This document shows positions 20,638 to 55,021 of a DNA stretch of 64,000 nucleotides, piece by piece. Source of the stretch: Paramacrobiotus metropolitanus. Its lineage: Eukaryota; Tardigrada; Eutardigrada; Parachela; Macrobiotidae. The first letter of the stretch is position 1; each line of letters starts with the position of its first letter. Position numbers and translations under genes: made by a program. A model generated the notes under the pieces. The model worked only from the letters and a program-made list of their open reading frames with translations, did no database searches and was not told where the DNA came from. The DNA lies in the NCBI RefSeq assembly GCF_019649055.1, contig NW_026570233.1, forward strand, positions 1,550,001 through 1,614,000. The letters are read 5' to 3'.

Positions 20638-20919
20638 CTACGTATTAACAGAGTCGTCGTGTTGTGAAGCAATCGAGCGCGCCACATATCTATTATATTC
20701 CGTCATGTCACAAAAGTCCTCCAGCGGTGCGGTGGTATTTCCACGCGGACAATAGGAGACGAACGATCGGTCCGTGCTGCGACCGCTACCTTTGCTTGTC
20801 CTGACACGGGAGGCCCTGTAAGTGTATGTACACCCTTCCGGAAGATTCTACTGTGCCGTCGGTGACGAGACCGGTGGCCACCGAGTAGAACGCCATCTTG
20901 CCTAAATCGATACCCTGGC
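20638..20919 (-). pseudogene. Secreted protein family, paralog B: 3' half of exon 3, cut by the element
   Basis: This is the downstream part of exon 3 of paralog B, on the far side of the 34-kb insertion from its other exons (55016-55855). It aligns with exon 3 of A and C through GIDLGKMAFYSVATGL and SFVSYCPRGNTTAPLEDFC, ending at TAG at 20638. Besides the insertion it has one more lesion: four extra bases in GTGTACATACACTTAC (about 20819-20834) relative to the paralogs, which shift the frame. The element sits exactly between GGCCAGG on one side and GCCAGGG on the other, so the pre-insertion codons can be inferred. The gene is dead in this haplotype. Confidence 0.9.
20914..20919. other. Target-site duplication, left copy (CCTGGC)
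   Basis: Six bases CCTGGC directly precede the left inverted repeat and recur at 55016-55021 after the right one. A 6-bp duplication is what Maverick/Polinton integrases are known to make. Removing the element and one copy rejoins exon 3 of paralog B in frame. Confidence 0.95.
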
Positions 20920-21202
20920 TGATGATAAGTGATCATTCTGGCGCCATTGGGCGCCACCCTGATCCACTGCCCCAGAAGCAGCAACCCCCAACTGCCCCTG
21001 GAATTAAATAATAAATTAAAATAAATAATAAATTATTATTTACAAAATTAAAATAAACGTCTGACCAAATTAATATTTTAAATATTAATAAGGCCGGCAA
21101 CCAACCACCCATGGGCCAAAGTGACGTAGGTCGCTACCTGCGAAGCAGGCGTCAGCCAGCCCGCGGGTGGTCAGGCTGTGCGGTACATATAGCGGTCATA
21201 AG
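20920..21202 (+). repeat. Left terminal inverted repeat
   Basis: It begins TGATGATAAGTGATCATTCT and can be aligned over about 283 bp with the reverse complement of 54733-55015. The outer 80 bp are nearly identical (differences mainly in C-run lengths). An AT-rich middle (about 21000-21090) diverges more. An inner block (GGGCCAAAGTGACGT, CGAAGCAGG, GTCAGCCAGC, GGGTGGTCAGGCTG) is well kept. It contains GGCGCCATTGGGCGCC, itself an inverted repeat. Identity fades after about 21200. Confidence 0.92.
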
Positions 21203-21808
21203 TACTGTACTGTACTTAGTTGTCTCATCTCTGCAGCCTCAAAGAAGTGGGACTCAGTACGTACTGGCTACTCTCGCTGCTGTGCGCTGCAAACGTCTAC
21301 TTATTCCCTGCTGCTTGTACACGCAGGCTTATGGAAGATAGAAAGAAAGAATGCAAGCCGTGTGCAAAGTCACAGCTGTATTGCTGGCCGCTGCTTATTT
21401 ATTCAGTGTGCTCATTTTCATGTCTTCAGTGGTAGACTGATAAAAAAACTGCATGTGGAGGAAAAATGGCCATCTAGCTCAAGTTCTCATGGCTCTTATC
21501 AGCGTAATGAAGCGTAAACAGTGTCTTACAGCAGAGAGAATTTTAGCTGTAATGGCATCATAGTCTTATCTCCTGGTAATTTTTTCTCTTTCAAAAACCG
21601 TCGGCCCAGAGAATGAGAGGAAAAATGAGGTAAGTCGCGATGTTGAAAACTAACTCAACCATCAGTTGATTATTTGCGCATTCAGTTCAGTCATTTGCAT
21701 TTGAAATGATGTTTTGCCAGGCTAGAATATTTGTTAACAGCTCTTATGTGACATAACTATAATAACTGTATTCATTCTAATTGACCTGTGTGTTTACCGT
21801 GCATAACA
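21203..21808. other. Sub-terminal spacer inside the element
   Basis: No gene is supported between the left inverted repeat and the first gene of the element. Several overlapping short frames carry no motif. This is the likely promoter region of the membrane protein gene at 21809. Confidence 0.5.
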
Positions 21809-22632
21809 ATGGCAGTGGTTTTTAACCTTATTATTGCCGGGGCTGTAATGGGTGTAATTACTGTATGCAGCGTTGCTTACGGACAGTACTATCCCATCGT
21901 CGCTACCAACACCGCCGTCGCCGCCGCCGCTTGTCCATACTTCTGCACCTGCAAGCCTACAATCTGGCAGTGCTCAAGCAGCAGCTCGATGACCTGGCCG
22001 CTGGATAATCAACCGCATGTCGTTGTGAGAGGTGTGAAGATGTTGGATATGACAGGATCGGATGTGAATGTGCTCCCGAATTGGCCGCCAACCCATAATT
22101 TCCCGGATTTGCAACTGATCTTCCTGGTCAACACAATTTTTGACGGTTATCAATGTCGTGAATTGGAGTGCCTGGAGAAACTGGGTCTGAAGATCATCGC
22201 TCCCCGATGCGGAAAAGGTTAATTACCAATAAAAAGTTTCTGTAAATAGTTTTCTTGACTCAGAATCGTTTCCCATCGAAATAAGTTTCACGCAGAAAAT
22301 GTATATCCATCCGTAGACAAGCGTAACGGCTGCGCGTATGCCCCGTGCTGTCCGTGGTCCAGCCGCCCTACACCAACCGGGTTTCCAACACCCTGGCCTT
22401 TGCCATATCCGCCCAAAGTCTTCACTACCACCCATGCTGGTAAGTAAAGATTCAGTCAAACATTATTTTCGATAGAAGGTTCGGATAGTTCTTGTTGTAT
22501 GTATGTAGCTGCCGCTATAACTACAACAACGGCCGGGGCGGTGGCGCCTGCGGCAAGCACAAAAATTGTGCAAGCGACGATTACATCACCTGCCCCTTTA
22601 TTAATTACGGTTAGGCAAGAGAGCAAAAGCAG

Positions 22633-22664
<32 letters not shown>

Positions 22665-25119: not shown

Positions 25120-26500
25120 TCATGCATAATTTCCCATTTTTCGTACAATGACAGTCGAGCAGCTTCTGCAATGCTGGCACTGAACAAATTGATTAAAGTA
25201 GTTCTTTATAACCTGGAAGATATGCCGAAGATTGAAGTGGCGGTAAAGTTCTAGGTAGTTGTATTTCTGGTAAACATCATGAGAAAATCCTCGTGGCAGA
25301 TCCACCTCTGTTCCAGTGCGTTTAATGGCTGTTGTTCGCAAAGCGTTTTGAAAATAGGTGTCCAGAGGAATGAGGCTTTGTTCCATGAGGTTTTGGAACT
25401 GGTAAAGTTTACTACGCGTGTGATGTTAATCATCGTGTAGCGGTAGCGTAGAATGGGCTTGGGAAGAGGCTATATAAAAACAGAACGCCATAAGTAACTG
25501 AAAAATTTGAAATTGAGGATGTCGATAAGGCTTACCAGGATTATGGAGCACGTCTTGGTGCACAGCTGCAGCTCGTTCCGTATCTGGCCGGTGTCGAGAT
25601 ATCCAGTGTACTTTTCGCTGCTCCTGCATCGGGGTGCTTTGGCGGAGTGAAATAGCTGCTGTCATTGTTGTTGTTGTCGGAGATGGTTCATTAGTTTCCA
25701 AAGGTGAAGGGGTGAATTATATGGCGAACGATATCGGTAAATCATACTGGGTCGGAAGCTAAATCTTTGCCGCCCGTTTGTCCTACTGTTATAACCACTG
25801 CTCATGGTGATGCCGGCGCCGTCGTCGTCGTCGGTGTCGTTGTCGATGTCGTCGCTGCCTTGGAAACAGAGGCGATGCGGGGTGGAGAATCCAAGATTTC
25901 TAATAAAAGTCGAATATAATGTACCAGTAGTTTCCGAGCAAGTAGCCTAGCAGCATCCGCTTTTGCCAGGTGTGTTGTTGGTCCGCTCCCTATTATAAAG
26001 AGATCTTCGTTGGCAATTGCTGCCTGATAATTCCAGTTGTTCGCGTCGATGGACGGAAGTCGGCGGTATTCCAAATCAAAACCGAGTATGTTTGCTAGGC
26101 TTTCCGCGAGTGCCTGATAAGGCGGTTGTTTTCTCGGGGCGAGAGAGGATGGATCTGGCGTAGGCGCTGATTTACTGGTAGTAGTTGTGATGGTAGTGGT
26201 GTTAGTGGATGTGGATCCTGATTGTTGCTGCCTTCTTTCGCTTTCCAACACTTCCAAGAGTTTGGTATGGTAATTCCGCAATAAAATAGCAAGTAATTTT
26301 TTAGCCGCGTCCTGTTTGGCTGTCGCTGTTGACTTTCCAACACCTATTGCAAAATGTGTTCAGCCAAAATGCCGGCTTGGTGTTTGCAGCAAAACGGTTC
26401 GTTAACTTTCTTTGGAACACTCTTGTAGTCAATTTTAAAAGATAAAAGTTTCCCGATAGAACTAACAATAGTTGTAAAGAAGCGGCGCACCATTCCCAAA
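25120..26500 (-). CDS. Tandem double-stranded-RNA-binding protein
   Basis: Two dsRBD signatures lie in order on the minus strand. The first ends GVGKSTATAKQDAAKKLLA (about 26277-26345) and the second has NYQAAIANEDLFIIGSG followed by LAKADAARLLARKLL (about 25925-26045). Both keep the G-x-G and the Lys/Ala-rich helix 2 that contact RNA. A Ser/Thr/Gln-rich linker separates them, and Thr-rich sequence follows. A further exon (about 25120-25490, after the intron with CCTG|GTAAGCC and TATATAG) may encode the C-terminus (QCQHCRSC). The first repeat is broken by a one-base shift near 26350. Host proteins of this layout (TRBP/Loquacious/R2D2) help Dicer, and some DNA viruses carry dsRNA-binding proteins that blunt antiviral responses. 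The role here is inference. Confidence 0.6.
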
Positions 26501-26967
26501 ATCCGCAAAACTGCACTGACTGCAGCATCGAATTACGCCGGGTGATAGCTATTATATATTATACGGCTTGCATATCGGATCTGCTTAGTTGCAATGCTCA
26601 CATGCCGTGCTGATTCTAGCCGCATCAGCCCCCTGGATCGATGGGCCGGGTCTGTGCGATAGTTGCCCATGCGCCTCACCCCCTGTTGTGAGACGTCCAG
26701 CGGAGTATAAGTCACATAATGTCACCACAACTGTTTTGTGTGTTCAGCGTGTTTATCACCCTGTATAAAAGCGGTGCACAAAGACAAAGAATGACGTGTG
26801 AATAAGAACTTGGCTTTTCGAGATTTCTGACAACCTTCTGCTCGTAAGCGGATGCAAAAATCGAATTATATCTCCGATCATAAATTGTTGTGTAATCAGG
26901 AAAGGCCCCCCTCCCGCATGACTATAGATTATTTGCTGGCGGTGGAGCTGATTATTGTTCTTGATAC
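26501..26967. other. Divergent promoter region, dsRBD gene and integrase gene
   Basis: This region lies between two divergently transcribed genes. It holds TATAAAAG at 26764-26771 in the plus direction and an AT-rich TATTATATATTATA at about 26551 that could serve the minus direction. No coding sequence is supported. Confidence 0.5.
26764..26771 (+). promoter_or_regulatory. TATA box of the integrase gene
   Basis: TATAAAAG stands about 200 bp before the first integrase ATG. The same octamer or TATAAAAA recurs before the major capsid, ATPase and BIR genes, which suggests a common promoter class. Confidence 0.55.
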
Positions 26968-28158
26968 GTGGAATTATTCAGAGAGGCTCTGCTGCTACCG
27001 CTTCCGCTTCCGCTGTTGCTAAGAAACACAAAACCCGGCAAAAAAGGTAAGAAAGCTGCAATGGCGCGAAAAAAGTTATTACCAGCAACCGCCACTGAAA
27101 GTCGGCGAAAGGCTTCCTTTCTGAAATCGCTCTATACTGATATTACGTCACCGGGGTATTTGGGTGGAACGATGACTCTATACCGGCTTGCTAAAGAGGC
27201 AGAGAAAGCTAAGCACCTGACGGTAACCCTACAGGACGTCAAGGATTTTCTTTCTGAGCAAAAGACTCATACGTTGCACAGGCCTACCCGAATTAAATTT
27301 AAGAAATTAAAAAATTTTTGCGTTGGCGTGGATAACGTTTGGCATGGTGACCTGGTGGAGCTGCAGAAAGTTAAAAAATTTAATGAAAAGTTCCGCTACA
27401 TTCTAACGACAGTAGACTGCGTTAGTCGTTTTGCTACATCGTACCCGCTGGTCAACAAATCGGGTGAAACTGTTTCGAAAGCGCTGGATATAATTTTTCA
27501 AAAGCGGCGGCCCGTTGTTTTGGTGAGAATGAATAACGAGACTGAACAGCACACGCTATCCTAAATATACAGAAAGCTTTTGTAAATTTAACTGTTTTAG
27601 TTACTGATGCGGGAAAAGAGTTCATCAATGAAAAAGCAAAATCCGTATACGACAAACACGGCATACGCCACCAAATATCGTCTTCAAGATTTAAAGCCGC
27701 GCTAGCGACGTTTCAATCGAACTCTTAAAACGACATTATTCCGTCATTTTACGTTCACGAAGAGTTCAAATTGGTTTTCAGCGTTGCAAAATATTATTCA
27801 AAATTATAATGGAAGCGTACATAGTGCTGTGAAAATGAAGCCGGGAGAAATCACGGTCAGCAATCAATCGCAGTTATTTAAACTGGGCCAGGAAAAGCGG
27901 TTTATTAAGTTGCAGAAGGCAGCTTTTAAAGTTGGTGACAGAGTCCGGATTGCACTTAAGAAATCAACATTCAGCAAGGGATACACTCAAACGTTCTCCG
28001 ATGAAATTTTTCAAATTTCCGAAATTTTGTTTGGGCCGGTGATAACGTATCGTCTGCAGACGCTCGATCGCGTACCGAAAACTCTCTTGGAAGGCAATCG
28101 GCCACTGCAGTTTTATAAGGAAGATATTTCCAGAGTGGGGTCAGGAAGAATTAAATGA
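26968..28158 (+). pseudogene. Maverick rve-family integrase, broken frame
   Basis: The DDE/RNase-H-fold integrase joins the element to target DNA. The first frame (26968-27564) holds a basic N-terminus, the conserved VWHGDLVELQ (first catalytic Asp) and TTVDCVSRFATSYPL (second). A second frame (about 27562-27720) holds TDAGKEFINEKA with the conserved Gly-Lys-Glu-Phe. The third (27784-28158) holds NYNGSVHSAVKMKPGEI and a chromo/SH3-like C-terminal barrel (FKVGDRVRIALKKSTFSKGY). The breaks lie near 27540 and at about 27700, where an in-frame TAG also appears. With the sequence as given, no intact integrase can be made; assembly error or true decay are both possible. The family assignment is strong because of the order of motifs and the 6-bp target duplication. 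Confidence 0.88.
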
Positions 28159-28234
28159 AATTCTGAAACTGTATGATCAGTCAGTTGTGAACTTTTCATA
28201 TTTATAAGGTAAACCTGTCTTTTTGTAGGAAACC

Positions 28235-29127
28235 ATGATGGAGGGAGGATTTTATACCGTACTGCATAGCGGAGCTTCCGTGGCTTATGGCTCACTGGTG
28301 CTGCGCAACACCGCCACACAATTTTCCAATAAACAACAACTACCGATTTTATCCTACTACGAACAGCAAGTGCCTTGGGAGGTTGCCCTGGTTAGGGCGT
28401 TCACTTCAGCGGAGCTCAGCACCATCCACCTGAGCATCGGCAGCTGACAGTCTGCGTAAACAGTGCTGATAGCCAACTTTATTTAGATGCCTACCTTGCG
28501 GAGGCTGAATTCGACAAATCGCCGCGTGACTTCGTTGCTGCCGTGTCAAAGGCAGTCCAGATGATGGTCACCAATATGGCTGGAGTAATTGCGCCTTTAA
28601 TTTTGCTGCAAGAAGGAAAGTTGCACTGGCTGAGTCAGAACGAGCAGGTGCAAATTGTCAATAGAGGTAACCTGCTGTCGGTGGTACTGGGTCTGCTCTA
28701 CGATGACGATGCCGGCGTAATGCGTCAAGAAGTGGCTGCAAGCGCATATTTTCACGATCAAAACTTCCAAAAATATGGAGACACTCGGCTCATTCGAAAT
28801 CGTCTGCCGGTGGACACGCAGCGGGGGCGCAAGCAGGCCATTATCTGCATGAATCAAATAGTTTCTTTTGCCTTCGGAAATCGGACGGAAAATATTCTCG
28901 CGGTAGCCAGTGTCGATGATTTGGAAGAAAGGTTATGAACCAAAAGTCGCATGTATGTCCCCGTCAAAACTGGTTCTACAAGTCCAATCCCACTGTTACC
29001 ATCCAATCAGACTGGAAAATGCCTTGGAATGAAAATGCTCTGGGAGAAACCACTCTGACGCTCCATTATCGAAAATGCCAATCCAATAATGGGAGAGCGG
29101 AAAAATCGGAGACTTCTTTTCGTGAGT
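28235..29127 (+). CDS. Penton-like minor capsid protein, probable
   Basis: The gene starts with MMEGGFYTVLHSGASVAYGS, then NTATQF and PWEVALVRAF. This matches the N-terminal plan of Maverick penton (single jelly-roll) proteins: a short aromatic strand, an N-T-x3-F motif and W-E-V-x-L. The frame shifts near 28445 and continues through 28938 (LLQEGKLHWLSQNEQ, IVNRGNLLSVVLGLLYDDD). A third frame (28935-29127, HVCPRQNWFYKSNPTVTIQ) probably belongs to the same protein. The position between integrase and major capsid fits the usual neighbourhood of the minor capsid gene. The assignment is by motif and context only, and the breaks appear to be single-base. Confidence 0.6.
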
Positions 29128-29613: not shown

Positions 29614-31385
29614 ATGGCTACCCTAAAAAACCAGTATACAATCGAGAAGTTTCCAGACGAGCTTCAGCTGTTTGATCCACCCGTATCACAATCTACAGTA
29701 GAATCGTATCATTATACGGATGTCATGCCACTGAATCAAATTGTAAACAACACTGACGTTATTGAATTTCTCATTCCTGCAACTGAATATTACTTAGACC
29801 TGTCAGATGTGCTGCTGAAAATGAAATGCCAGATTTTGGATCGTGATCCTACCAAAGTTCTTGGAGTGATCAAGGCTCAGCAGCCTATACGAGCTGTAGT
29901 TGTACCTGCACAGCCTGCTCCAGTCGTCCAGCCAGATTCTTCTGCTGACGCTGGCGCAGAAGCTTCTAGTGCATCTAATGCCATAGTCTCACAGCACCCA
30001 CCACCACCGCCACCGCAGCCGCCGCCACCGCCGCCGCCGCCACCGCCGCCGCCGGCGCCCAGGCCAAATCAACAACAACAACAGCAAGGCTTGATGACAA
30101 GCAATAGCAACGCGGCGGGGCAAAGTTACATTGACAATCCTTTAGCCGACCCATCTATTGCCCGTTTGGTGGGGAATTAGATTTCGCCGACAGAGGTCAT
30201 TATACCAACGTGTTAAACACTCAGGGTGTGCGTGATGCGGCTCCAGTTAATTTACTATTTTACATGATGTTTGAGCGTGTGGAAATCGAAATAAATGGGA
30301 CGCCTTTTGTTGTCAACTACAATAATTATGGCTACAAAGGCTATATGCATACGCTGCTAAACTATTCTCGAGGGTGAAAAAGCATCTGCTCCGACCTATA
30401 ATGTGGTTCAGAGATAAGTTAAGCCGAATTCAGCCACAAAATACCATGGATAGTGTGGACTTAACGAACCCTGAATTAAATCAAGGACTCTTGGCGCTAC
30501 GATTTGACAAAAGAAGGAAGGTATTCGAAATGGTGGGGAAAATAATGCACGAATTGTTCTTTCTCGAACAGTACTTACTACCGGAAGTTTCTATTCGAAT
30601 TCGACTTTTCAAGCGCAATCCTTCTTTTATCTTATGTCTGACGATATTGCTCCTAATTATTACCTTAATTTTTTGGATATGCGGCTGATCACTCGTTTTG
30701 TTAAATTGTCACAAAAAACGCAGGACCAAATGCAAAAGCGGCTATTGTCACAGCCGGCGATTTATAAAATGTACGCAGCTAGCGATGTCCGCAGTCGGGC
30801 ATTAATCCCTGGTCAGCGGCAGTATACGATCGACAACTTTTTTGGTTCCGAGAAAATACCAAATAGAATTGTTTTTGCTATGGTCACTCACGACGCCTAT
30901 CTAGGAAACTACCGCAAAAATCCAATAAATTTCCAGCACTTCAACCTTGAGGAAATAACGCTAATAGTCGATAATCAGATTCTATCGTATAAGCTCGATT
31001 TTAAAACGGGCACTATGCCATGCTTTACATTGCGTTGGCATGTCAACTCGGCAATAGAGATTATGCCTGCTCCACCGACACATCGTATGCCGACATTCGC
31101 TACGGAACGGTACAAATGATTGTTTTAATTAACGCTCTATCGTTAGAATTTTCTTATCGTTATGTATTTGATTTGTGTTTTGTGTTTTTCTCGCAGAGCA
31201 TCTTCCCTTTTGATTTGACGCCCAATCATGATATCGATGATATTCCGGTCGAAAGGAGACAGCTCGCTCGATTAGAGCTTAAATTCGCTGCGCCGCTAGA
31301 AGAACCTGTCGAACTGCTTGTATTTTCTGAGCAGCCGCGCATTTTTCAAATTGATAAGAGCAAGAAATTTATTAATGTCATGTGA
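29614..31385 (+). CDS. Maverick major capsid protein (double jelly-roll), interrupted and spliced
   Basis: The N-terminus (ELQLFDPPVSQSTVESYHY, then VIEFLIPATEYYLDLSDV) matches the conserved start of Maverick hexon-like capsid proteins. A low-complexity insert follows (poly-Pro at about 30000-30058, poly-Gln at 30073-30087). Next come VEIEINGTPFVVNYNNYGY, IMHELFFLEQYLLPEV, PNRIVFAMVTHDAYLGNY with a KNP motif, and the C-terminal SIFPFDLTPNHD. An intron fits at 31110-31196 (GGAACG|GTACAA ... CTCGCAG|AGC) and keeps the frame. Four single-base frame changes occur, near 30174 (GGGG), 30372 (GGG), 30622 (TTTT) and between 31020 and 31060, all in the same direction. Either the gene is decaying or homopolymers were under-called. 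The protein forms the hexagonal capsomers of the virus-like particle. Confidence 0.85.
31110..31196 (+). other. Intron in the major capsid gene
   Basis: This is an 87-nt sequence with donor ACG|GTACAA and acceptor TTTTTCTCGCAG|AGC. Its removal joins two blocks conserved in Maverick capsids in the same phase. The intron itself happens to be open in that frame but encodes hydrophobic text absent from the family. Confidence 0.65.
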
Positions 31386-31649
31386 AGGTCACTAGCAAGT
31401 TATAGTGTTAGTTTTGTCGTTCGGTCGTTTTCTACTACGTAAATCATCATGTGTCTGTTCTCTTAGATTATTAAAGCATCCGAAAAGCATCGAGTCGATT
31501 TTCTGTGATTTATTAAATATCATACACACGACAGCAGATCATAAAAGACGGTGTCATAAAGAAAAAACATACCTGACGTGCACAAACCATTATTACGATT
31601 TTTTTACGTGTGATAGTTATCGAAAAATTCATGCAAAAGTTTACGGGAC

Positions 31650-32321
31650 AGAGAGCAGTTTGACAACATCAAAGGTTTTATATACGAAACGCTTTTTACA
31701 AAAGTAGGATCGTTCAACAGCTGTTTATAAGCTTGATAAACACGACCGAGATCGTCAACAATAACCTGTTCGGGTGCGGTGTCCCATCCGCTCGCTTAAT
31801 CATGCGCCGAATAGCTTCCATAGGCTTCACATCCATAAAAAGGTTAAATCCGGAATAATAAAGGACGCTGAAGTGGCTTCCCCTTCGCTGGTTTCAATGC
31901 TCTTCATCCAGTCCATATCATGTCCACGGGCACTGCCGTAGGCCAAATCGGATAGGATATAGCGGTCCACAATAACAATATTTCCGTCGGCTAAATTACT
32001 GCGAATGTCATTAATGAGTATCTGGCGTCTCGCGGAAAGGATAAGATAGGTAGCGCGGGTGTGAACAAGGTCACGGTTAGATAAGGCAAGAACAGAGGCT
32101 CGGAATAAGTCAGGCAATGCTGGCTGGGTGAGGCAGTTCGACATGGAAAGGTCATTGTGTAAGGAAACATTATACCCCATATTGGCAAGCGCATCAGCAA
32201 GTATGACAGATCCATTGGTTTTCTCTGCGGTGTTAATTCCTTCGAATACAATTAAAAACGGCTTCGGTTTTGTCTGTTTCTGGTTGCACTGCTGCTGCTG
32301 CTGCTGATGCAACATATCCAT
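31650..32321 (-). CDS. Thymidylate kinase-like protein with damaged P-loop
   Basis: dTMP kinase makes dTDP for DNA synthesis. Starting at the ATG at 32321, a short poly-Gln leader is followed by FLIVFEGINTAEK, which occupies the P-loop position; then LILSARRQ, IVIVDRYILSDLAYG (the DRY motif of thymidylate kinases) and PDLTFLWM. The usual P-loop ends in Gly-Lys-Thr/Ser, but here the Gly is Glu (codon GAG), which should impair ATP binding. The frame breaks at a T-run (about 31829-31833) and family-like text continues in other frames to about 31650. It faces away from the RNR gene, but both would supply dNTPs. Confidence 0.75.
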
Positions 32322-32476
32322 GATCGTAATGTGCTGCAAAATGAAATGAAACACTATGTAAGCTGCTGTTACACGGATATATAGGCACAGTACTGAAAAT
32401 GCTTCAGGAAGCGAAGCGAGAACGAGCTGTCTGTAGTGAGAATGAAAGAAACCTTACTTTGCTCAGTCATTCATCT

Positions 32477-34055: not shown

Positions 34056-34119
34056 CAACTTACGCGGTTAACTCCGCTAAATATTGGTATTATTACTATA
34101 GACTGACTGCAAGGACAAA

Positions 34120-40944: not shown

Positions 40945-40998
40945 CCAGAAAGTTAAACACTTGCCAATTGTTCTGCTCCGTTACTGTTACCGGAAAAA

Positions 40999-41648: not shown

Positions 41649-41660
41649 AATACAACATCT

Positions 41661-42883: not shown

Positions 42884-43842
42884 TTGATAATTTAAGGTTT
42901 TTCCGAGAGTGCTCGTATTAGCCTGTTAACGGACCCATTCAGCGGTCTGAACATCGAAAGAATATTTTCGACACCGCGACCGTTTTTTAAAATTGCCAAG
43001 GTGTCATTAATAAAACTGCTAATTAAAAAGATTTTCCGTTTAAAACGGCAGCAGTCTCATTAGTAAATTGATTAAGCATTCTCCGCTTCTCGTAAAAGGC
43101 ACAGCGTTGTTAGTTGGGTTGCAAAAATTAAAACTAAAAGGTCGGTTGGCTATAGCGATGCCAAGCGGAAATAAGATACTCATGAAAGGTCATTTTAGCA
43201 AATGCTTATGCCCAGGGGCGGCAGAAGAGCGCAACTGTTCTCGACAGCTCCGCTCTCCTTCCGCTTTTATATCCAGCACAATCATCATTCCGCCTATGCC
43301 AAAATATTATTGTTGAAAACCCTGCATTTGTTTACAAAATGTTTACAGAGAAGGGTTATTGCATGCACTTACAACAAGAATGAACGGGGCGGTATTCAAC
43401 AGCGTTTCGTATTCCGATCCTCCAGCATCGTCTTGGCTTAAAATTTTCAGATTACCACTACCAGCATTGCTCTTAGTATTTCCATGTGCCATTTTTCCGT
43501 AATGCCAAGCAAAGTGAATTTCGCGCATTCAGCATATTGCTCAAATAGCCTTTTTATTGAGTAGGGTAGTAAGTAGGTCATGATGTTAAATTGTCAACGC
43601 CTCCTGCTGCCTGTTGGGGCAGACTGGAGAGCCTTTGTTATTGCCTGGCAGCAGCTGCATGGCAGAAGGCGCACAGCTTGTCGTCTGGCAGGGCGGAGCA
43701 TGTCCAGCTGGCTGTTGTTTACGGCCAGATGAACGCAGCTTACCACCCGCTGCTTCCATGTCGGTGAATTGACTCATGCAGAGCATAGGGCGGCTATGGA
43801 ACCCACCCCCACCGCGCAGAAAACTACCATTATAGCGGAAGC
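42884..43842. other. Small unresolved frames in the element
   Basis: Several short frames occupy this stretch. On the minus strand, 43343-43493 (MAHGNTKSNAGSGNLKILSQ) and 43586-43786 (MLCMSQFTDMEAAGGKL) follow AT-rich or TATAAAAG-like sites (the reverse of CTTTTATA at 43264-43271 points to a minus-strand gene starting near 43200). This is where a protease, pVI or other small structural gene could lie, but I could not match any family. Confidence 0.4.
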
Positions 43843-43911: not shown

Positions 43912-44545
43912 ATGTCCGATTTTAGTCCGCTTATTCAGCAGGATACAGAGCTTGGTCTGAAAATTGTTTGGCCAGGAATGACGATGAAGTAGCTATTAAT
44001 CAGCTAAGGGCAAATGGCTTCACCCCGTTAATCTTCTCGATTCCTACTTATGCGCTTATTGTGGACGGATAGATGTTGGATTAACTACACAAGCCAATCC
44101 AATCATTTGTCATATTCAGAAATATTCTGATTGCGAAAAACTCCGTGAAATGTGTATGGATGATGCGGATGATGATGAGCGCCCTATCAAGCTGAAGTTA
44201 CCGGAGTTTCCAGCTTTTCAGAACCTGGACGATCGCCTGAAAAGCTATGCCCATTGGCCCGTGAAAATTGCGAAGTCTCCCTATGAACTTGCACAAGCAG
44301 GGTTCCACTATTGTGGACGAAAAGATATGGTTAAGTGCTTCTATTGTGGACTTATGGTCAGTGGGTGGATTAGCTCGGATGTTCCGCTGCTGGAGCATCT
44401 GCGCTGGGCCCCCAGTTGTCTCTACGTTCTCCCTTACAGATCGTCGCATGCCACCCATATATGCCACGTGCTGCTCACCAACAGACAGCGAACCATCATC
44501 ATCGACAGCTATAAGCCCCAGATCGCCACCCACACCCTTCTCTGA
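43912..44545 (+). CDS. Inhibitor-of-apoptosis-like protein with two BIR repeats
   Basis: IAP proteins block caspases through BIR zinc modules. BIR1 is spread over frames between 43925 and 44150: AYSAGYRAWSENC, LRANGF, then LCAYCGRIDVGLTTQ and HIQKYSDCEKL give the C-x2-C...H...C ligands. BIR2 lies in the frame 44150-44545: RLKSYAHWPV, LAQAGFHYCGRKDMVKCFYC, GWISSDVPLLEHLRW and SCLY, with all zinc ligands present. No RING domain follows; the C-terminus is Ser/Pro/Thr-rich. One-base breaks occur near 43975 and 44030. Viral IAPs that delay host cell death are well known in insect DNA viruses, so an anti-apoptotic role is plausible. Confidence 0.8.
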
Positions 44546-44678: not shown

Positions 44679-47600
44679 TCAAGTTTGAAAAAGGTTTCTG
44701 ATTCTAATCGGATTGCATGAAACAATAAAATAAAGACGGTACCAGAAAGTTGTCGCCGGCGCAAAAATGTTTGTAAACCCTAAAAAGTTCATACGATACC
44801 GTTCTTTCAAGATTAAAAACCAAAACAAGTAGCCTGTAAATTGAAAGATCTGACCCTCATTGTCAGCTATAACAAGTAACTGCGCAGTAAGCCATCGCCA
44901 GTAAAGGAGGAAATGTACTGCCGCAAAAACAAAAAATTCAACAATATCTTCCCATACAGTAGGGAGAAAACGATTTCTAAAACAGCTGAAGAAATTGCCC
45001 GGACGATATTCCTTGCAGTTGGTTTTCTTAGGAATTACGGCGTAAAAGTGGCGCTGGATCTTGACGTTCATGATGCGCAAAATCGGAAGTGATTTATCCA
45101 CGACACCATCTTTGTTCGAAACAGGGCGAAAATCGAATGCTACCGATCCGTTTTTCGTGGGAAATAGGAGAGCTTTCCTTTTCATCTGCAAGGTATATTT
45201 TGCCATTTTACATTTGACAAAAATAGAAAACCAATACGAAAATTGCTTACTGGGCAGTCCAGTGGCAGAGATCCAGGATCAATGAAAGGACTGTAGCCAT
45301 CATAGCTGTAAATCGCTTGTCCGATGAAAAGAGCTATTCCGCCGCCATGTCGCTCCATACCATATCGATCTGCGTTCACTGAGGCCGCGGAAGACTCTTC
45401 CTTAGAGAGGCAGGCGATTTTAAGGAGTTCGGGAAGGTACGCGGCTTGGATTTCGGATGCGAATTCTCATACAGCTGCTCGAATGCCTGACCATAATGGA
45501 GCATTCCAAAGACGGCAGCCAGCCGCATCGCAAGGTAGTGCTCGTCACTTCCCGTCTTTGCCAGTGAGATGGCTCGAAAGAAACAGTTGCCATCGCCAGG
45601 CACGTTGTATGCTGTGTACTCTTCACAAAACTCCACTGATTGCAGCATTTCGTAGTGCCATTTGCAGCCCACATGCCGCGAATCGACATTTTCTACCAAA
45701 ATTTGGCGTGAGGCAGCCTGGGAGAAGTCTTTAGTTGTAGTTGTTCCGCGATATTTCCATATTGCTACTTTAATGTAGCTACAAAAAAAAAAAAATGAAT
45801 CGCTCGCTCCCACATTATACATACGCACACATGCGACACACACACAAACACACACACACAAACACAGGGTTTAGTTGTTATCCTTACATTAAGGACAGCA
45901 AGGTGGAACTGTTCAGCCGCAAGCAGTGTGGCGTCGACACAACATCTGTCGACCAATTCCAACACATCCACAATAACGTCCCGAGTGAGCGATGATGGGG
46001 AGAGAAGGGGAGAAGTCAGCTGCAATTTGCAAGATGCCGCATATTTCTAAAGAACAAAACAGAAATTCTGATGATTCTGTGCAAATATCTCAGACGGATT
46101 TGCCGGCAAAGCAGTGCTTTTTACCTCCTGGTCAACAAGCGCGCTCATCAAATGGTTGAAAGCGCCGCGACGGTGATCGGCAGAGGCGGTGCCTGCCAAG
46201 AGCGGCAACAAAACCTCATCCGGATACAATGTGCATAGCTTGCTGAGAAGATGCTGATTAATATCGACTTCGATTGTGAAACTCGGCTTCTTGACTTCGC
46301 TCAGAATCTCATTCCCGGATTTGGAAGGCGACGACAGTGAATCACAATCATCAATGGGGATGATATTCTGCAAGCATTTTGTGTGTACAGGCTACAAACG
46401 TAGCAGTGAATCCTAGAATCATACCTCTTCAAGGACCATTTCAGGACCTTCCTTCGGCTCTACGTCGATGACTACCGCAGGGACAACGGGCAAAAGATCG
46501 CGAACGTCTACTAGCGCTTCCATGCTTCCACTGTTTTGTACGACTGGCCCCAAGGGTGTTTCGGCGATTAAGCCTGCAGCGCCGTCATCAACCACCAAGT
46601 AGCCGCTAGCGCCACACTCGTAAATGCTGGAATAAGACTTCAAATCGGCTTTCACGGGCTCGAGGGCATCAAAACTCGACGAAACATCAAGGAGCTTCTG
46701 GCGGTGCTTGTACAAATCAAGCTTCTTTAGCTCGTTCCCAATTTGTTGTAAAGTCTGGGGTTTCTCTGCCAGTAGCTGCCGGTGTGCTGCATTTCGGTCC
46801 GTGCTTTGGGGGTGTGGATCGACAGTTTCTACCGCCTGTTTTTTTGGACCACTTGGCTGCTGCAAACCGATTGAGCCATTAAAACTGAAACGTGAAAAAC
46901 TTAAACGAGCATGTTTTTCACATACTTCGGTTGCGTCTTCAGCATCATTTTTGGCGTTCACTGCCAGCGAAAAACCAAAGTGAGGGGGATTGGGTTCAGA
47001 GCCAGAGCCGCGACCGCTATCCTGCAGAGACTGCGCTTCCGCATCGGGCTTCACGGAATTCGGAAGCGATTGTGACGTGCTGGCAACTTCCATTTCGTCA
47101 TTGGGAGGAATACTGTGAGTAGGGGATTGTTCTTCTTCCACAGCATCCAATGAGGTTGATGACGGCGACGGTGTCGCAGTGCCCGGTTCCTGTCCGGCAG
47201 ACGCGGTAGGACTCTGTTCTGCTGACACAACCACCGAATCGCTGCTGCCTCCATCCCCGGACAACGACTATAAAGGCACGCACATTATTAACAACGGGAA
47301 GAAAATTTACGAGCTTGGTACTATGGATACAGTTCCGGCAACGCACCTTGATTGTCTTTCTACGTTTGGCTGATGGCTCCTCATCGCCGGTGGAAGGATG
47401 ATGCGCTTCTTCCTGATTGTGGTCACCATTGTGCTCATGCTCTCCGTCGTCTTCAGTGCTCTTAATAGCACTCACATCCGCCCCGAAGTGCTCGTCCAGT
47501 GTGCGGCAGCGTTTTCCTGAGCTTGCCGGCAGCGGTGTGGAGTGGCGCATATCACCGGACGATGACGTAGTGGAGGTAGTGACGGGTAGAATAACAGGTG

Positions 47601-50600
47601 GCTGTTTAGAAGCTGCTGCCCTGCTATACGCTGTCCGCGTTGACCGAGTCGCACCTCTCGAAAGCTTCACAGTGGACGGACGTTTCTCTTCCGGCTCTGG
47701 CAGCGCCCGTTTTGTCGTTGGCCAGGGGACCTTGCGCAATTTTCCCACCGCTTTTTCTGCATGCAAGGAATAGATCAGTCAAAATGTTGCAAAGAGAATC
47801 AATCGCGTTTTCAAATATCTTACCACTACATCTGGCTTGCAGGCCTGAATGATGCTCAGGCTCCATCCAGAATCCGATCAATGCGAAATCGACCATGGGC
47901 CAAGGATCATCTTTGCGTAATTGGCGCAGGTCGTGCAGCTTTCGAGGGGTTAGAAGAACACAGAAGAGGCTGCCCAGTTTGTTTTCACGCCGGGCCAGGT
48001 TATCGACAGCCGGCTTTGCCCTTCGCTCCACTAGATCCCAGAGTTGATCGAATTTCGACTGCAGCGCGCGCGGATAGCAGGCAATTTTGAGAAGCCAGCC
48101 TATCGCTTCGGACTGATCTTTCGTCAGAGCCTGATGGTCATCGCAAATTCCAGGCATTGCGGGCTCAAGATTTGACAAAAGCGTTGGATAATGCTTAATA
48201 AACAACAGCTTAGCTGACGCGAGCGGCTTGCTTTGTTGAGTAGTTGGAACTGGAGTGAAATGAAAGCGGTGGTCAGGATTCGTAATGGGAACGGAGTCCG
48301 GTAGATCTACGGTATCATCCACGGCCTGGTCATCACTGAACGGAACAGGAACGTTATCTGGAATCCCAAGCTCTTGTGCATGCTGTCGTGCAACTACTTC
48401 GACACATTTCCTGGCTGTACTGAAAAGCTGCTTGCCCGTGTACTGCAGGGCGACCTGCGCGTTGACTTCCTGAGCTCGACAACACAAAACTTCTGCTCTT
48501 CTGCCGTGGGATTCAGGTACAGACAAACCTGCACAACAAAACAAAGAATACAAATGTGAATTTTAAATAAGGCATTGCGAGGACTGATGAACACGCACGT
48601 CCAGTTCTTCCCATCCCATCATTTCCGCCGCGGCGCACCGCTGTGCACCTGTAAGAGTAATCCTGTTAAATACTTTTCTACATGATGCGCCTAGCGTAGT
48701 TCGAGATTGCATACCGTCGTAGATGGAAATCTTGATTTTGCCATTATTGACCAGCTTTTCCACGTCTTCCCATGTACCATCCGGTTTATTGTAAAACACA
48801 ACTCCCGTAACTGTCCAGCCAACTGTGTCGGGAGTTTCGTCTGTTCGATGGTTACGTAAATGGTGGCGTAGATCATTGGCATAGCTTAAAGAGACTGGCC
48901 GGACATCCGGGTGCGGGACCTTGCTGCCCCAGACCAGGCAACTAAGAGGAAATTTCCGCCTAACCAGGAACCGCGTTGTCAGAGCCGGTGGTTCAAAAGA
49001 AGTGGGTTTTTCTGGCAACAAGATATCGTCCTGCCTTAGGCGCTCCTGAGCTGCATATGCCCGACCGGAATAGTGGTACCATTCCACTGACTCCGGAGCG
49101 GAAGATTGGAAGTCAGGTCAAGCTGGGGATTATTTGTTGCCTTGGCAAGCTGGTCTCGGGCGTTTAACCAAGCTTCCATCTGAAAAACTTCCATTCTGCA
49201 CATTCCGCGGGAGGTAGCCTTTGGATCTGTATTGTTGGCAATATCGTCAGGGCATTGACGATAGAGATCCGTACCAATAACTACGTCTCTGTAGTTATGG
49301 ATATCCGCAAAGTTTCCTGCAATGGCTTCATTACGTCCAATTTGTCCGCCTTGATGGATCACCCGCAGCCGACAAGAACGAGATCTCCCGGTCCCTGCTC
49401 GATGTACCATGCATGACCTCCTTGCCGCAAGAAGTCTCTCCAGTCGGCCAGGATGAGGAGTTTGTGAAGATGGTTCACGCCGATATCGTCACACGTTGCG
49501 GTGTCTGGCGCGATAACTTGAGCGTACTTGTCTATTAAAATATTAAAACAAACAAACAGATGACACCTAAGGACGTTCTCATATGGGAGCCACACCCGTT
49601 GCAATTATTCTATCGCTTTCTTACCTGCAAATATTTTCTTGGCCAGTGGAAAGTGCTCAACCGGAATTCCATCCATGACTTAATGACGCTTTCTAGTGTG
49701 AACAGGAAGTTGAAAGAAGCGAGCATCCCATCTTCACAGTGAGAACCGAACCCGGTAAGTCCGGCTGATATGAGCAGCTGATTTTGGTAATGCCGGGCCG
49801 AGGACCGCGCTTGAACATCCGGTCAAGCTCTTTAAGCACACAGGGCACTTCGAAATCGCACAACTACAAAAAAAAAACAATGATTCCCCTACGTTTACTT
49901 AATTCCCCTACGAAGATGACACTTAGCAAAAAGGACGCATGCTTTAATTATGCTTACTTCTGGAACAATCTTCACTTCGTCTACAAAGGCATAATAGCCG
50001 ACGTCTCGGGATGCAGCTTGTGAATGGCGAAGTGCGGCAAAGAATCTCACGCCGGCCTCAGCATCGTGCCGCCCGGGATTTCCCTTCAGGACATCACTGG
50101 CATCTAGCTGGCGTAAAATGTTGTTCTCTGATTTCCAGAGCGCACGTTTGGCACATTCATCCCAAGATAACCGTTCATCAAGGGGACAGTACTGCTTGCC
50201 AGCATTTTGAATAACGACTAAGCCGTTAGGATTGGCCGTGAAGAACTGTTTGGAATACGTTAGCTGTCCGTTCCTTTCAAACTCTTTGAACGCGGATGTT
50301 CCTGCATATCATTTCGCGATATGCACAGATGTTTGTTACCGGTCACCTGAAGATGTTCAGATGGATGTTTTAAGAAATAATTATCGTGGAAGTTTTACTA
50401 GCACAAAGGTTATGGGATAGGCGTTCAGCAGGCAGTTTATAGACAGACACACACCTTCATAAACAAACTGCGTGGGAATTGGTATTGACCGGGGTTTTCT
50501 TTCATTTGAAGATATTCACGCTTAAACAGATCGTAAATCTGCGGTCCCACATTGTTCCGATCGAATTTACATTCCACCTCGCGCGCTTTGTGCAGCTGAC

Positions 50601-50682
50601 CAGGAAATTCAACGTCAAGGTTGGCAATATCGTTGCTGGATAAGCAGCCCATGGGCACTGTTGTTGCAGCGGGGAACGACAT
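44679..50682 (-). CDS. Large multi-exon OTU-domain protein carried by the element
   Basis: About 14 exons with good splice sites can be chained: 50455-50682, 49958-about 50290, 49752-49863, 49625-49678, 49363-49531, 49092-49288, 48595-49050, 47824-48528, 47347-47756, 46425-47267, 46125-46367, 45888-46046, 45251-45717 and 44679-45185, giving about 1,620 residues. Exon 2 has no ATG and is easily missed. The N-terminal two thirds match no family I know (SWDECAKRALWKSENNIL, GYYAFVDEVKIVPE, CDDIGVNHLHKLLILADW). A disordered Ser/Pro/Glu region follows. The C-terminus is an OTU fold: NVPGDGNCFFRAISLAKTG with the catalytic Asp and Cys, a YGMERHGGG segment, and RHFYAV as the likely His strand. The only clear lesion is a missing base at a T-run near 45467. 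OTU proteases remove ubiquitin. It looks like a host gene captured with its introns. Confidence 0.7.
45839..45867. repeat. CA microsatellite in an intron
   Basis: CACACA tracts with two AAACA interruptions lie in the intron between OTU-gene exons 12 and 13. A 13-A run at 45782-45794 is in the same intron. A minus-strand ORF running through it gives a poly-Cys/Val peptide that is an artefact. Confidence 0.85.
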
Positions 50683-51300
50683 TGTTGAGGAATTACTGGG
50701 GAATACATGAGCGTGAGCGTTAATTCTAAATGTTACAAGAGTATAATTATGCTGGTTTTTTAATTGGCTACACGATGGATACAGGGCAGTGTGTCTTTAA
50801 ACATGCTGTTCCTAATATTATTAACTGCAGAAATTTACCTAATCCGTACATATATGTTTGACAACTGCTACAGATTGGTAGAGGTTAGAGTTATTGACAC
50901 TCGTGTTTTGCTGATAGACTTCTGATTCCATTCCACTTCCTTACCATCATCACACATTCTTGTTTTGAACAAAGAATTACATACAGCCCAGTATTAAAAA
51001 CAAAACAATCAAAAAACTAATAACTGTTATTAGAAATCTATACCAATCAGCCATGAACAAGATACACATCATCAACGTTAGCATGGAAAAGAATCAGGAA
51101 ACAAAGGTTTTAACACAAATCCAAATCTTCATTCCACTCTCCGCTGGTCCATCCTTCACCATCAGATCTACAAAAATGCCGTGATAGTTAGAAAATAACT
51201 CAACAGACTGCTGCTATGTGGCAAACGATGCAGCGGAAAAGATTATTGCACCTAAATAATAATATTCTACTGTTATTATTTTTCTTGTCTCACCTTACTA
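50683..51300. other. Spacer between OTU and SGNH genes
   Basis: No gene is seen. It separates the 3' end of the SGNH gene from the 5' end of the OTU gene, both minus-strand, so the OTU promoter should be here. No clear TATA box of the TATAAAA type is present, unlike the core viral genes. Confidence 0.5.
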
Positions 51301-52639
51301 CTACTGCTGCTTCTTCTCGTTGACCTTCTTTTTCTTGCGCCGATCATTGCGGAGACCTGTGCCGAGCTTGCTCCGTTCTTGGCCACGGTCTGCCGCTCTT
51401 TCCGCTGCTTCTCGGCACGGTGGGCACGGACGGCAGCTTTGTGCTTCTCCTCAGTTCCTTCCGCTCTTTGGCAGCGCGCTCATCAGCATCCTTCCGCGCC
51501 TCAGCCGCCCGATCATCGGCCGCTTTCTTCTCCGCCGTGCTCGCTCATCCGCATCCCTCTGCTCCTGCGCTTCCCGCTCTTCCTTTTCCTTCTTTGCCCG
51601 GGCAGCTCGCTCGTCTGCCGCCTTCTGCTCCGCTCGACCCGCTCCGCCACTCGCTGCTTCTCCGCTGCCTCACGCTGCGCCGTTTTCTCGCCTGCAGTTC
51701 GGCTGTACGCTCTGCAACAGACAAACAATTAGCATTAAAAACTAAGAGAACATAAATTTGACACAGAACCGAATCTTTAATTCACTGCACTTAGCATCAT
51801 ACTTTGGGCGACGCGCTCAATGGCTCTATACATGGCAATGTACAGCCGATCGCCCATGGCGGGAGCAATATGCACATTGTCTGTGTGCAGGAACTTGTCC
51901 TTATGGTCGGCGACATTCCCAAGCTCGAAGGCCGGCATGTTGATGAAATGCCAGTTGTTCCGGGCATTTTCGCCCTCCACGCAAAACTTCCGCAGGCTTT
52001 CATTGATATAGCCGATGGCGATATTGCAGTGGGGGCGGTTGATCTCGGTCTCCGGCACTTGCACCACAAAAATTGGGCTATAATAATGCTGCAGGGCGTT
52101 TTTAACAGCATTTAATTGGCTGATTATGTCGGATGCCGGCTTGTGGTGATGGGTAGTACTTAAGCGCTTCCCGTACCAGAAATTCTTCACATCGTTGGTG
52201 CCGGCGAGGAGAATGAGCTTCTTCCGACGGTCGGCAGGAGGCAGCGCGGTCCCGTAGTGGGCGCGGGCCAGCTGGATCATGTTCCACAGGACCTGGTTGA
52301 AGGTGGCCCCGGCCTCCACGTGGAATAGGGCATCGCGCTTCGCAATGGTCGGGTAGCGGCGGTATACTACGGTGGTCGAATGGCGCCAGCCCTTCCCGGA
52401 CTTGATCCAGCTGTCCGTGACAAGGAGCGTACGGCGGCCCTGGGAATCGGTTCCACTACGACCTTCACCTGTCCATATTCGCCCACAACGTCAGTACTGT
52501 TGAGGCGCTTCAGCTTCGTGAATGCTTCTTCGCTCAAGAAGCGGTATTGGGATTCGTGTTCCTGAAGAGGTGGACGCGGATGGACCAGGTAATCGCAGTT
52601 TTCAGCATCTGGAATTGGGATGTGTTCGTCGTGTGTCAA
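51301..52639 (-). CDS. SGNH-hydrolase-like protein with charged coiled-coil tail
   Basis: SGNH enzymes are small esterases or acyl hydrolases. Exon 1 (51803-52639) starts MTHDEHIPIPDAENCDYLV. The core has block I-like LLVTDSWIKSGKGW (Ser in a D-S motif), EAGATFNQVLWNMIQLA, block III LILLAGTNDVKNF (Gly-Thr-Asn-Asp) and block V DNVHIA (Asp and His). One frame change lies near 52440 at CCC/GGG. The donor GCCCAAA|GTATGA and acceptor TTGCAG|AGCG join exon 2 (about 51301-51711), an Ala/Glu/Lys/Arg-rich stretch (ERAARAKKEKEEREAQEQ) likely to form a coiled coil, in which the frame drifts several times. SGNH-like proteins are known cargo of some mobile elements, and the role here is unknown. Without splicing, the SGNH part ends at 51777. 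Confidence 0.6.
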
Positions 52640-54732
52640 CAGTTCTGACTACTAATCAGCAGCTGTCCGGTAAACCGATTGTGAGTCAGTTACGCGGACT
52701 GCAGGCGGTGGCACACCGACCGATGCGCTGCTAAACCAACGGTTAGTCAGTTGCCACAACGCATCAATCGGCAACTGGTCCTGATGGAGAGGTGCAGGAC
52801 AGCAGGTGGCTGGAATACGGCACGGACACGTCGCGGCAAAGAGGGCAGGAGGCGATGCTGGGATTGCTGAACCAACTGTAAAAGTCAGTTACCGCAATAC
52901 CCCCGCACTACCGGAAGGAGCTGGCTTGGACAGAGACTGCGGAGCGAGGAACGGCCGGCACTGATCAGTCAGACGATTCCGGTGGAAACTGCAATAGAAA
53001 AAACACTGGTAGATACAAGTATTGGTACACGTACACGTACACCTACACCTACACCACTACTGCTCCGCAAAATATGCACAGAAAATATTCATATAAGCTT
53101 TCCTTGTTGCCAGTATACTAAAGTATTAGATAAATCAGTACTGTGACTACTTGCATAATGTGCAGAGAAAACACCTCAACCGCCTGCGGGTTGCACTGGT
53201 CTGAACACTGACTTCGCTAGTTGCGAAGTTGGTCACTACAGCCCGTGGGTGGCTGGTAGCTTGCCCGCCAAATACACGAACATACAATTCCGTTGCACTT
53301 TAGACAGCAATAAGTGGCAGCAAAGAAAGATGTCGATGATAAATTTCTGTTTTCAACACTTATTCCATTGCATTTTAATTTTTTGGGAGCAATAAAAAAA
53401 ATAAATTGAAATTCATTAGAAAATAAGTTCGAACATTTTGAAATTTGGTCAATAGTCAGTCTTCCCAATGGGTCTTTCTTGATAAGCCTCTCACAAATAT
53501 CTGTTGCTGTGGAATACGAAATATTTAGTTTGCGCTTTGTGCAAACTATAAATAACTATCTTTAAGGAATTTTGTTGTATTTTTTTCGATCAAAATCGGC
53601 TTATTGAGAGCGTAAAGCTATAGCAGTCTTACTGGAAATGGGTTATTATTATCATTTTCTTGTGCATTTTGGCTTGAATTTTTTCGGTTCTTCAAAATTA
53701 ACAAACAGTGAAAGCACTGCATCGAATTGTATTTAATGTTGATATCCTCGGGTGGTACGGTATCATTGAATCTACCATAATATTATTGCAATTTTGTTGA
53801 TGAAATATTTTAAATGCCGATATTTCCATAAATCAATTTTGGATTATGCGAATTTGAGAATTACCTAAACCTAGACTAACGGAAGTGGAGAATACAGCAT
53901 AATTCACGAACCAATAACTGAAGAGGATTCTCAATAAACAGAAAGATACAGTGTGCAATTTAGTATTTTAGAAATGCACATTTACACTATGAGAACGCTG
54001 AGAAATAATTATGCGAAAGCAGACGGAGAACTTACAAGTAAACAGGCAACTCAGCGGGCTCCTCGATATGCGATGGCACTTGAAGGCAGCCGTAGTTCTC
54101 GGTAGTTTTCTCTTCGCAGCAATTCTCTGATCTCGCTCTTCCGCAATGCTCAAGCCTGATACCGTTTCGCAGTATGCCCTGTAAAAAGCAAAGAATTCGA
54201 TTCGTTTCTCGATAAATATTGACGAACCCGTAGCCAGTGCACGTCGATTCATTTTACGATCAGCAGACATACAGATTGCAGCAATGGTCGAGGGCTAGAT
54301 GTGCTAAAAACATAGCATTCTGCATCGTAAACAACAGCGCTAAAATGCCTGCTTACCAGTTTTTACGACTGCTTTCCCGAGTAGGAAGAATAACACGGGG
54401 TGGCTTGTGGTGTGGATGAGGATCCAGATCCTTTGCGTCGCAAGAGCACCTCCGCCTCAGATCAAATTGGCAGGCCGCGATGGACACCAGAAGCAATGGA
54501 AATTAACGGCGAACACAGAGATATTTTCCCTATAATCTCCAATACACTCCAAAAAACTAGTCAGCGATGACTAAATTAAAAAACCTCAGAAATTCACGCT
54601 GGTTCTTCGTTATGTGTTAAGCTTCAGTCACGCACGCGGAACACTGTGTGGCAAGAAGTGTGCCGTGTGCCTTGGCAACTGGGCGCAGGCAAATGCAGGT
54701 AAAGCTGTCTGCGCTGTATCTCTAACACATAT
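52640..54732. other. Non-coding right arm of the element
   Basis: No gene is supported. The first 400 bp repeat the word AGTCAGTT (three times between 52680 and 52890). A degenerate copy of the inverted-repeat core lies at 53175-53265. The rest is AT-rich. This arm could hold replication or packaging signals. Confidence 0.5.
53175..53265 (+). repeat. Degenerate internal copy of the inverted-repeat core
   Basis: It aligns in direct orientation with about 54755-54840 of the right inverted repeat. Shared blocks are CTGCTTCG or CTGACTTCG, then TAGCGAAG or TTGCGAAG, GTCACT, GCCCGTG and GTGG. Both have the CTTCG...CGAAG hairpin. It may mark an older element end or a duplicated binding site for the integrase or terminal protein. 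Confidence 0.6.
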
Positions 54733-55015
54733 ACAGCGCAGTTATATGTGCGGCGCAGCCTGACCACCCGCAGGCTGGCTGACACCTGCTTCGGAGGTAG
54801 CGAAGCACGTCACTTTGGCCCGTGAGTGGTTGACGGCTTTATTAATATTTTAATTTAATATTGATTTATACAGTTGTTTATTTTAACTTTGAAAATAGTA
54901 TTATTTATTATTTTATTTTATTATTTAATTCCAGGGGCAGTTGGGGGTGGCTGCTTCTGGGGGGCAGTGGATCAGGGGTGGCGCCCAATGGCGCCAGAAT
55001 GATCACTTATCATCA
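54733..55015 (-). repeat. Right terminal inverted repeat
   Basis: This is the inverted partner of 20920-21202, ending ...GATCACTTATCATCA at the target duplication. Indels relative to the left copy are mostly in homopolymers (for example CCCCCC versus CCCC near the GCAGTGG motif). The conserved inner block includes a hairpin-like CTTCG-N7-CGAAG. Confidence 0.92.
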
Positions 55016-55021
55016 CCTGGC
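55016..55021. other. Target-site duplication, right copy (CCTGGC)
   Basis: This is the second copy of CCTGGC, directly after the right inverted repeat and followed by paralog B exon 3 sequence. It matches the left copy exactly, so integration was by the expected staggered cut and the site has not been rearranged since. Confidence 0.95.

Follow-up and report, generated by a model that had tools for sequence, protein, structure and literature searches.

A Polinton/Maverick element with exact borders

We analyzed a window of 64,000 nucleotides from the tardigrade Paramacrobiotus metropolitanus (C13:1550001-1614000, in a host genome assembly of 169.8 Mb in 533 contigs) and found that positions 20920 to 55015 are occupied by a Polinton/Maverick element of 34,096 bp, which encodes an integrase, a family-B DNA polymerase (PolB), a packaging ATPase, candidate capsid genes, and the small subunit (R2) of ribonucleotide reductase (Table 1). 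The ends of the element form terminal inverted repeats that are identical in 240 of 279 alignment columns (86%; E 2e-81) and match perfectly over the outermost 40 bp. The same 6 bp flank both ends, a match with a chance of 2.6e-4 at the window composition, and the GC content of the element is 45.7%, versus 43.0% for the flanks. A preliminary description of this DNA had reported a Maverick/Polinton with borders exact to the base and a CCTGGC duplication, and both claims are upheld by the inverted ends, the hexamer pair, and the three further copies described below. Its inverted repeats are likewise present, but their reported length of 283 bp reaches about 10 bp too far inward, the aligned length being about 272 bp.

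The host region at the insertion site is a diverged tandem repeat. When joined, the two flanks align at 69% identity, with no gap at the junction, to a nearby stretch of host DNA, so the insertion split one member of the host repeat and left its neighbor uninterrupted. The host flank also encodes a C2-domain stretch at 15771-16487 (PF00168, 1.5e-10).

A search of the genome with the left end identified three further copies with the same termini, C57 (34.6 kb), C7 (34.5 kb), and C99 (48.3 kb). Read by eye, the duplications of the four copies are perfect and mutually different (CCTGGC, GATACC, TACGTT, and CTCCTA), and a 6-bp target-site duplication is found at four of four copies with these ends. 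The C99 copy (C99:124512-172773) contains about 13.7 kb of extra DNA between its R2 and BIR genes, perhaps a nested insertion.

Integration, replication, and capsid genes

The integrase belongs to the rve family, with a PF00665 score 0.8 bits under the curated cut-off of 32.6. Four of its relatives are single frames of 361 to 375 amino acids (aa), and more than 20 same-clade relatives, many of them full-length, are among the matches listed. The polymerase is of the organellar/viral family-B type (PF03175), an assignment that does not extend to protein priming; three P. metropolitanus homologues are 65 to 95% identical to it, and pieces from its N terminus align with a single long frame of the C21 element. 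The FtsK/A32-type packaging ATPase was identified through the C57 copy (PF04665 1.5e-5, 25.0 bits, above the cut-off of 22.8), the window piece alone giving a weak match (E 0.094). The capsid-like and penton-like genes are candidates, assigned by conservation and gene order. The capsid candidate shares 23 to 44% identity with its capsid-like counterparts from other elements of the same genome, and when two of these were used as a bridge, they too had no Pfam match and no relevant match otherwise. Thus, of the gene set named in the preliminary description, the integrase, polymerase B, and ATPase hold, and capsid-like and penton-like genes do occur and are conserved, but with fold evidence that is weak or absent.

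Both the capsid candidate and the integrase contain spliceosomal introns. At a single codon of the capsid gene, a GT-AG intron of 56 to 91 nucleotides (nt) is found in 12 of 20 copies and is absent from 4, with 4 unreadable, and one change suffices to explain this distribution on the capsid tree (15 of 16 readable copies, the window row being outside the tree). The integrase intron was read in 11 of 20 copies; in C55 and C382 it appears to be missing, since their frames are continuous and about 25 codons shorter.

Signs of recent movement, and interrupted frames

We found that left ends are 97 to 100% alike among the four copies and right ends 98 to 100% alike among three, with the C7 right end standing apart, while left and right ends differ from each other by 12 to 13%. 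Because same-side ends are nearly identical across copies, the left-right difference is inherited and provides no clock, and dating by end divergence was rejected. Between the window and C7, there are 2 substitutions in 3,289 bp of the integrase region and 5 in 3,397 bp of the capsid region; between the window and C57, there are 18 in 3,505 bp (integrase), 3 in 3,399 bp (capsid), and 26 in 3,630 bp (R2). Divergence over these five pairwise tests is 0.06 to 0.72%, and C99 is more distant (0.6 to 1.8%, with C57 versus C99 reaching 1.76%). Given this very small divergence, integration of the family was recent, and the near-identical copies at other sites in the genome suggest that the element itself moved recently.

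The right arm differs among these elements. The left part of C7 is nearly letter-for-letter the same as the window, while at its right end (6 kb compared) the match at the DNA level is limited to 108 bp of the terminal repeat, and its right arm encodes GDSL- and JmjC-like proteins that are related to those of the window but diverged. The two ends of C7 are flanked by one and the same 6-bp duplication, so C7 represents one insertion with an exchanged arm. The C21 element has no match to window pieces to the right of the BIR gene at E 1e-8; read by eye, its own right arm (L071:3019-3981 and 5852-6709) appears to encode JmjC-like and SGNH-like proteins.

An old, dead Polinton whose genes are all decaying would account for the imperfect inverted ends and for the interrupted frames of seven window genes (integrase, penton-like, capsid, thymidylate kinase, R2 N terminus, PolB, and ATPase), but the end divergence is ancestral, as described above, and in some other copies individual genes have longer frames without a break. 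The type of change also bears on this question. In the integrase region, the window and C7 differ by the 2 substitutions and by 10 one-base gaps, all of them in homopolymers of 3 or more, and of the 62 one-base gaps counted across all five tests, 47 fall in such runs, which hold 17 to 20% of bases. The published genome is, in the excerpt of the report drawn on here, a Canu assembly with nanopore reads that have an N50 of about 17 kb, for which Illumina data also existed (PMC11191345). Many of the frame breaks are thus probably nanopore sequencing errors and therefore say nothing on activity, which tempers every claim of a broken or whole gene; decay of the window copy, the first reading of these breaks, was set aside as unproven. 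One-base gaps outnumber substitutions in three of the five tests, with the reverse in two (18 to 10 and 26 to 15), and 15 of the 62 gaps lie outside homopolymers of 3 or more, so some breaks may be real. On balance, we consider a dead fossil unlikely.

A clade of elements with ribonucleotide reductase R2

The R2 frame is open from 34307, with the N-terminal end in another frame, and the N terminus was judged from copy C99. A genome search with R2 gave 82 matches; grouped by eye, they include 25 loci that retain most of the gene and are at least 61% identical. A same-clade integrase lies about 7 to 8 kb upstream on the same strand at 22 of these 25 loci (by eye); the others are C19, C149, and C294, the last at a contig end. 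For the R2 tree, 17 of 20 loci were used, with C57, C361, and C99 left out for split matches and five of the 25 loci outside the set. The 17 viral rows form one clade (support 100/100) and are 52 to 56% and 43 to 47% identical to two likely host R2 genes. Together with the host gene on C11 they lie on one side of a branch (support 71/87), and grouping them with both host rows gave p-AU 0.234. Descent from a tardigrade R2 is thus neither shown nor rejected, and the tree tests lend no support to a viral R2 without kinship to that of the host, an idea that was dropped.

The R2 ratio of nonsynonymous to synonymous substitution rates (dN/dS) is 0.017 to 0.124 in 8 of 11 pairs, the other three being saturated, and, judged by these ratios, the R2 clade is under purifying selection. 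By family (PF00268), motifs, and C terminus, the protein is a class Ia R2. The motifs that align with insect and fish R2 are kept, and we take these to be the iron ligands, the radical tyrosine, and the electron path. The eukaryotic R2 tail that binds the large subunit, R1, is FTLDADF. Of 18 listed C termini, 15 end in F-x5-F, one ends in NFDSDF, and two run on, and this R1-binding-like tail leads to a model in which the viral R2 probably functions as the partner of host R1.

It might instead be that R2 and the other cargo are host genes trapped by chance and serving the host. NCBI annotates the R2 as a P. metropolitanus gene, and the grouping with host C11 leaves a host origin unrejected. However, R2 gives one unbroken match at 17 of 20 loci, while the two likely host loci are split into 4 and 3, and the constant position relative to the integrase and the single viral clade also argue against trapping by chance, which we find very improbable.

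Related elements in the genome

Searches for related elements gave at least 151 integrase matches (best 150 of 293 candidates scored; several per element in places, other rve elements possible), at least 150 capsid matches (best 150 of 250; again several per element in places), and at least 167 BIR matches (best 150 of 362, host genes possibly included). Distant elements outnumber the R2-bearing clade in the genome. By eye, about 100 further loci with Polinton-type capsid-like genes are among the matches listed. In six distant elements (C143, C49, C51, C133, C17, and C62; by eye), integrase, capsid-like, and BIR genes occur in one order and on one strand, and BIR therefore looks like general cargo, with R2 marking one clade. 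Scans of IMG/VR found no exogenous relatives.

Other cargo

The most unusual content of the element is the R2, thymidylate kinase, BIR, and double-stranded RNA (dsRNA)-binding genes and the introns, all absent from the preliminary description. Domain-profile matches are strong for R2, PolB, BIR, and thymidylate kinase, moderate for the integrase, the dsRNA-binding gene, and (through C57) the ATPase, and weak for the JmjC-, GDSL-, and OTU-like genes. The dsRNA-binding gene has a counterpart at all 19 other integrase loci compared. Across pairs, dN/dS is 0.075 to 0.253 for the capsid gene (6 of 7 pairs), 0.10 to 0.23 for the dsRNA-binding gene (5 of 5), and 0.17 to 0.36 for thymidylate kinase (5 of 5). 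The GDGNCF motif of the OTU-like candidate is one that we take to be OTU-typical. In the right arm, the JmjC-like assignment comes from the C7 counterpart, which scores 23.5 bits against a cut-off of 24 and matches the window by tblastx at 48% over 48 aa; the right-arm pieces of the window that were scanned gave no JmjC match of their own.

At the left end (21785-24654), frames of low complexity that are rich in Ser/Thr and include a hydrophobic stretch could encode a membrane-anchored surface protein, and three pieces scanned from this region had no credible family match. Gln/Ser-rich frames lie between thymidylate kinase and R2 (32480-33998), with matches limited to the nearest copies and the C21 element. 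One piece scanned from the two overlapping genes at 42071-43056 had no credible Pfam family, ten window pieces gave nothing credible in PHROGs, and no Rfam families or tRNAs were found.

Table 1 Features of the element and its insertion site (window positions; x-y% values are identities)
Feature	Position	Strand	Evidence
Uninterrupted host paralogue of insertion site	17764..18134		Joined flanks align 69% through junction
6-bp target duplication, left copy	20914..20919		CCTGGC, same as 55016-55021
Left terminal inverted repeat	20920..21191	+	86% to right end; 98-100% to left ends of 3 other copies
dsRNA-binding-domain protein	25805..26532	-	dsrm PF00035, 25.3 bits vs cut-off 23; 2.3e-5
rve integrase, spliceosomal intron (~80 nt) near 27530-27610	26965..28155	+	PF00665 1.8e-7, 31.8 bits
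Penton-like minor capsid candidate	28229..29126	+	In 19/19 other integrase loci compared, directly upstream of capsid gene
Major capsid protein candidate, 87-nt GT-AG intron ~31114-31200	29614..31382	+	19 other loci
Thymidylate kinase-like gene	31607..32453	-	PF02223 3.6e-12 in window piece, 1.3e-18 in C7 copy
Ribonucleotide reductase R2, small subunit	34110..35284 (start approximate)	+	PF00268 1.3e-92; PDB R2 match 1e-99
Conserved protein, zinc-binding or BIR-like by eye	35515..36216	-	In 19/19 other R2 loci compared; weak zf-BED, E 0.02
Family-B DNA polymerase	36489..40938	+	PF03175 2.2e-28 and 9.7e-8 (two pieces)
A32-type genome-packaging ATPase	40957..41879	+	PF04665 Pox_A32 25.0 bits in C57 copy; pieces match C21 element
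Two conserved overlapping genes, one PC4-like by eye	42071..43056	-	51-87% in C21 element
Inhibitor-of-apoptosis BIR protein	44000..44542	+	PF00653 2.2e-22
OTU-like cysteine protease candidate	45185..45870	-	Weak PF10275, E 0.019 and 0.037, under cut-off; GDGNCF motif
Right-arm gene region, JmjC-like part near 49039-49488	46422..50796	-	PF02373 8.1e-5 in C7 counterpart
GDSL/SGNH hydrolase-like gene	51780..52490	-	PF00657 6e-4, under cut-off
Right terminal inverted repeat	54743..55015	-	98-100% to right ends of C57, C99; ~60% to C7 right end over 283 bp
6-bp target duplication, right copy	55016..55021		CCTGGC, same as 20914-20919

Interpretation

We put the probability at about 85% that the window contains an integrated Polinton (polintovirus-type) genome, part of an expansion in P. 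metropolitanus, with the following proposed mechanism. The integrase would take a linear genome copied by PolB and insert it at a 6-bp staggered cut, and element genes would be transcribed in the nucleus and then spliced. The capsid-like and packaging genes would allow virion formation. The R2 may pair with the host large subunit and raise deoxynucleoside triphosphates (dNTPs) in non-dividing cells, with thymidylate kinase feeding the same supply, while the BIR protein would block apoptosis, the dsRNA-binding protein would counter RNA interference or sensing, and the right arm would serve as an exchangeable cargo region.

Several observations weigh against this interpretation. The penton-like candidate has no Pfam match and no meaningful PDB match, and its assignment comes from position and conservation. 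For the capsid candidate, there is no relevant PDB match, 1 of 11 members touches the DJR-like family PF21738 weakly (E 0.062), and the AF2 model of a relative has a pLDDT of 37, so that its fold is not usable. The P-loop of thymidylate kinase (31830-32453) departs in the window's family from the pattern kept in a relative. No adenovirus-type cysteine protease was matched in the window pieces scanned with hidden Markov models, which are a part of all pieces, or in a crude motif scan, a difference from Polintons, 74% of which have an identifiable adenovirus-like protease (PMC4028283). To this are added the seven interrupted genes, and the word "complete" in the preliminary description stands for the borders and most core genes, with no such protease in the pieces scanned and with several frames broken in this assembly, probably by nanopore indels. 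Finally, a close relative at C55:835087-846000 has no recognisable R2, and therefore not every copy needs R2. Gain of R2 after this element split off was rejected, as it sits beside the R2-bearing C11 copy with support 100/100, and loss of R2 is therefore likelier. In the same C55 element, the thymidylate kinase and the zinc-binding gene lie in one frame, as after deletion of a segment.

The least credible alternative, in which a single old insertion was copied by segmental duplication or duplicated in the assembly, would fit the near identity of the copies and an element longer than the read N50 of about 17 kb (PMC11191345, as excerpted), but is contradicted by four different flanks, each with its own perfect 6-bp duplication, and by the match of the joined flanks to the host paralogue.

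A further-reaching version of the integrated-Polinton reading, which we hold tentatively and which is somewhat more doubtful than probable, is that these elements belong to a living lineage of tardigrade Polinton-type viruses, larger than their vertebrate kin. Such viruses would bring half of a ribonucleotide reductase and a thymidylate kinase for replication in non-dividing cells, carry an anti-apoptosis and anti-dsRNA set, enter the germline repeatedly, swap right arms, and have gained host-type introns in virion and integration genes. In a clade whose R2, thymidylate kinase, BIR, and dsRNA-binding genes are under purifying selection, one would see an animal Polinton that approaches large DNA viruses in its genes for metabolism and immune evasion. 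The roughly 25 R2 loci, the four insertions defined to the base, and an intron that some copies have and others lack make the gain of such genes and introns testable.

Comparison with known systems

The published comparisons made here draw on excerpts of the cited reports and extend as far as those excerpts do. The element resembles Polintons/Mavericks (PMC4028283, PMC8097293), which have been positioned close to where several groups of eukaryotic DNA viruses originated (PMC4028283), in its rve integrase, family-B polymerase, packaging ATPase, capsid-like genes, inverted ends, and 6-bp duplication, and it adds R2, thymidylate kinase, BIR, and dsRNA-binding cargo. At 34.1 kb it exceeds intact vertebrate Mavericks (12.7 to 24.6 kb; PMC8097293), as the preliminary description had claimed in calling its size beyond the usual, but it lies within the 14 to 40 kb of protist relatives (PMC10120064). 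In the excerpt of PMC8097293, intact vertebrate Mavericks have no introns, in contrast to the capsid and integrase genes of this element. A literature search covering titles and abstract openings, with most subscription journals outside it, returned no paper about Polintons of tardigrades, nor any about an animal Polinton with R2. Adintoviruses are likewise animal-associated and encode PolB and an rve integrase (PMC11071296), a comparison made by gene presence. R2 has also been reported in EMALE07, an endogenous mavirus-like element of Cafeteria (PMC8547959); there the host is a protist, the relatives are virophages, and R2 is named as unique to one EMALE type, whereas here it marks an animal clade with about 25 loci. 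Thus, the element is of a kind already known, given the R2 in EMALE07, and is an unusual animal variant of it.

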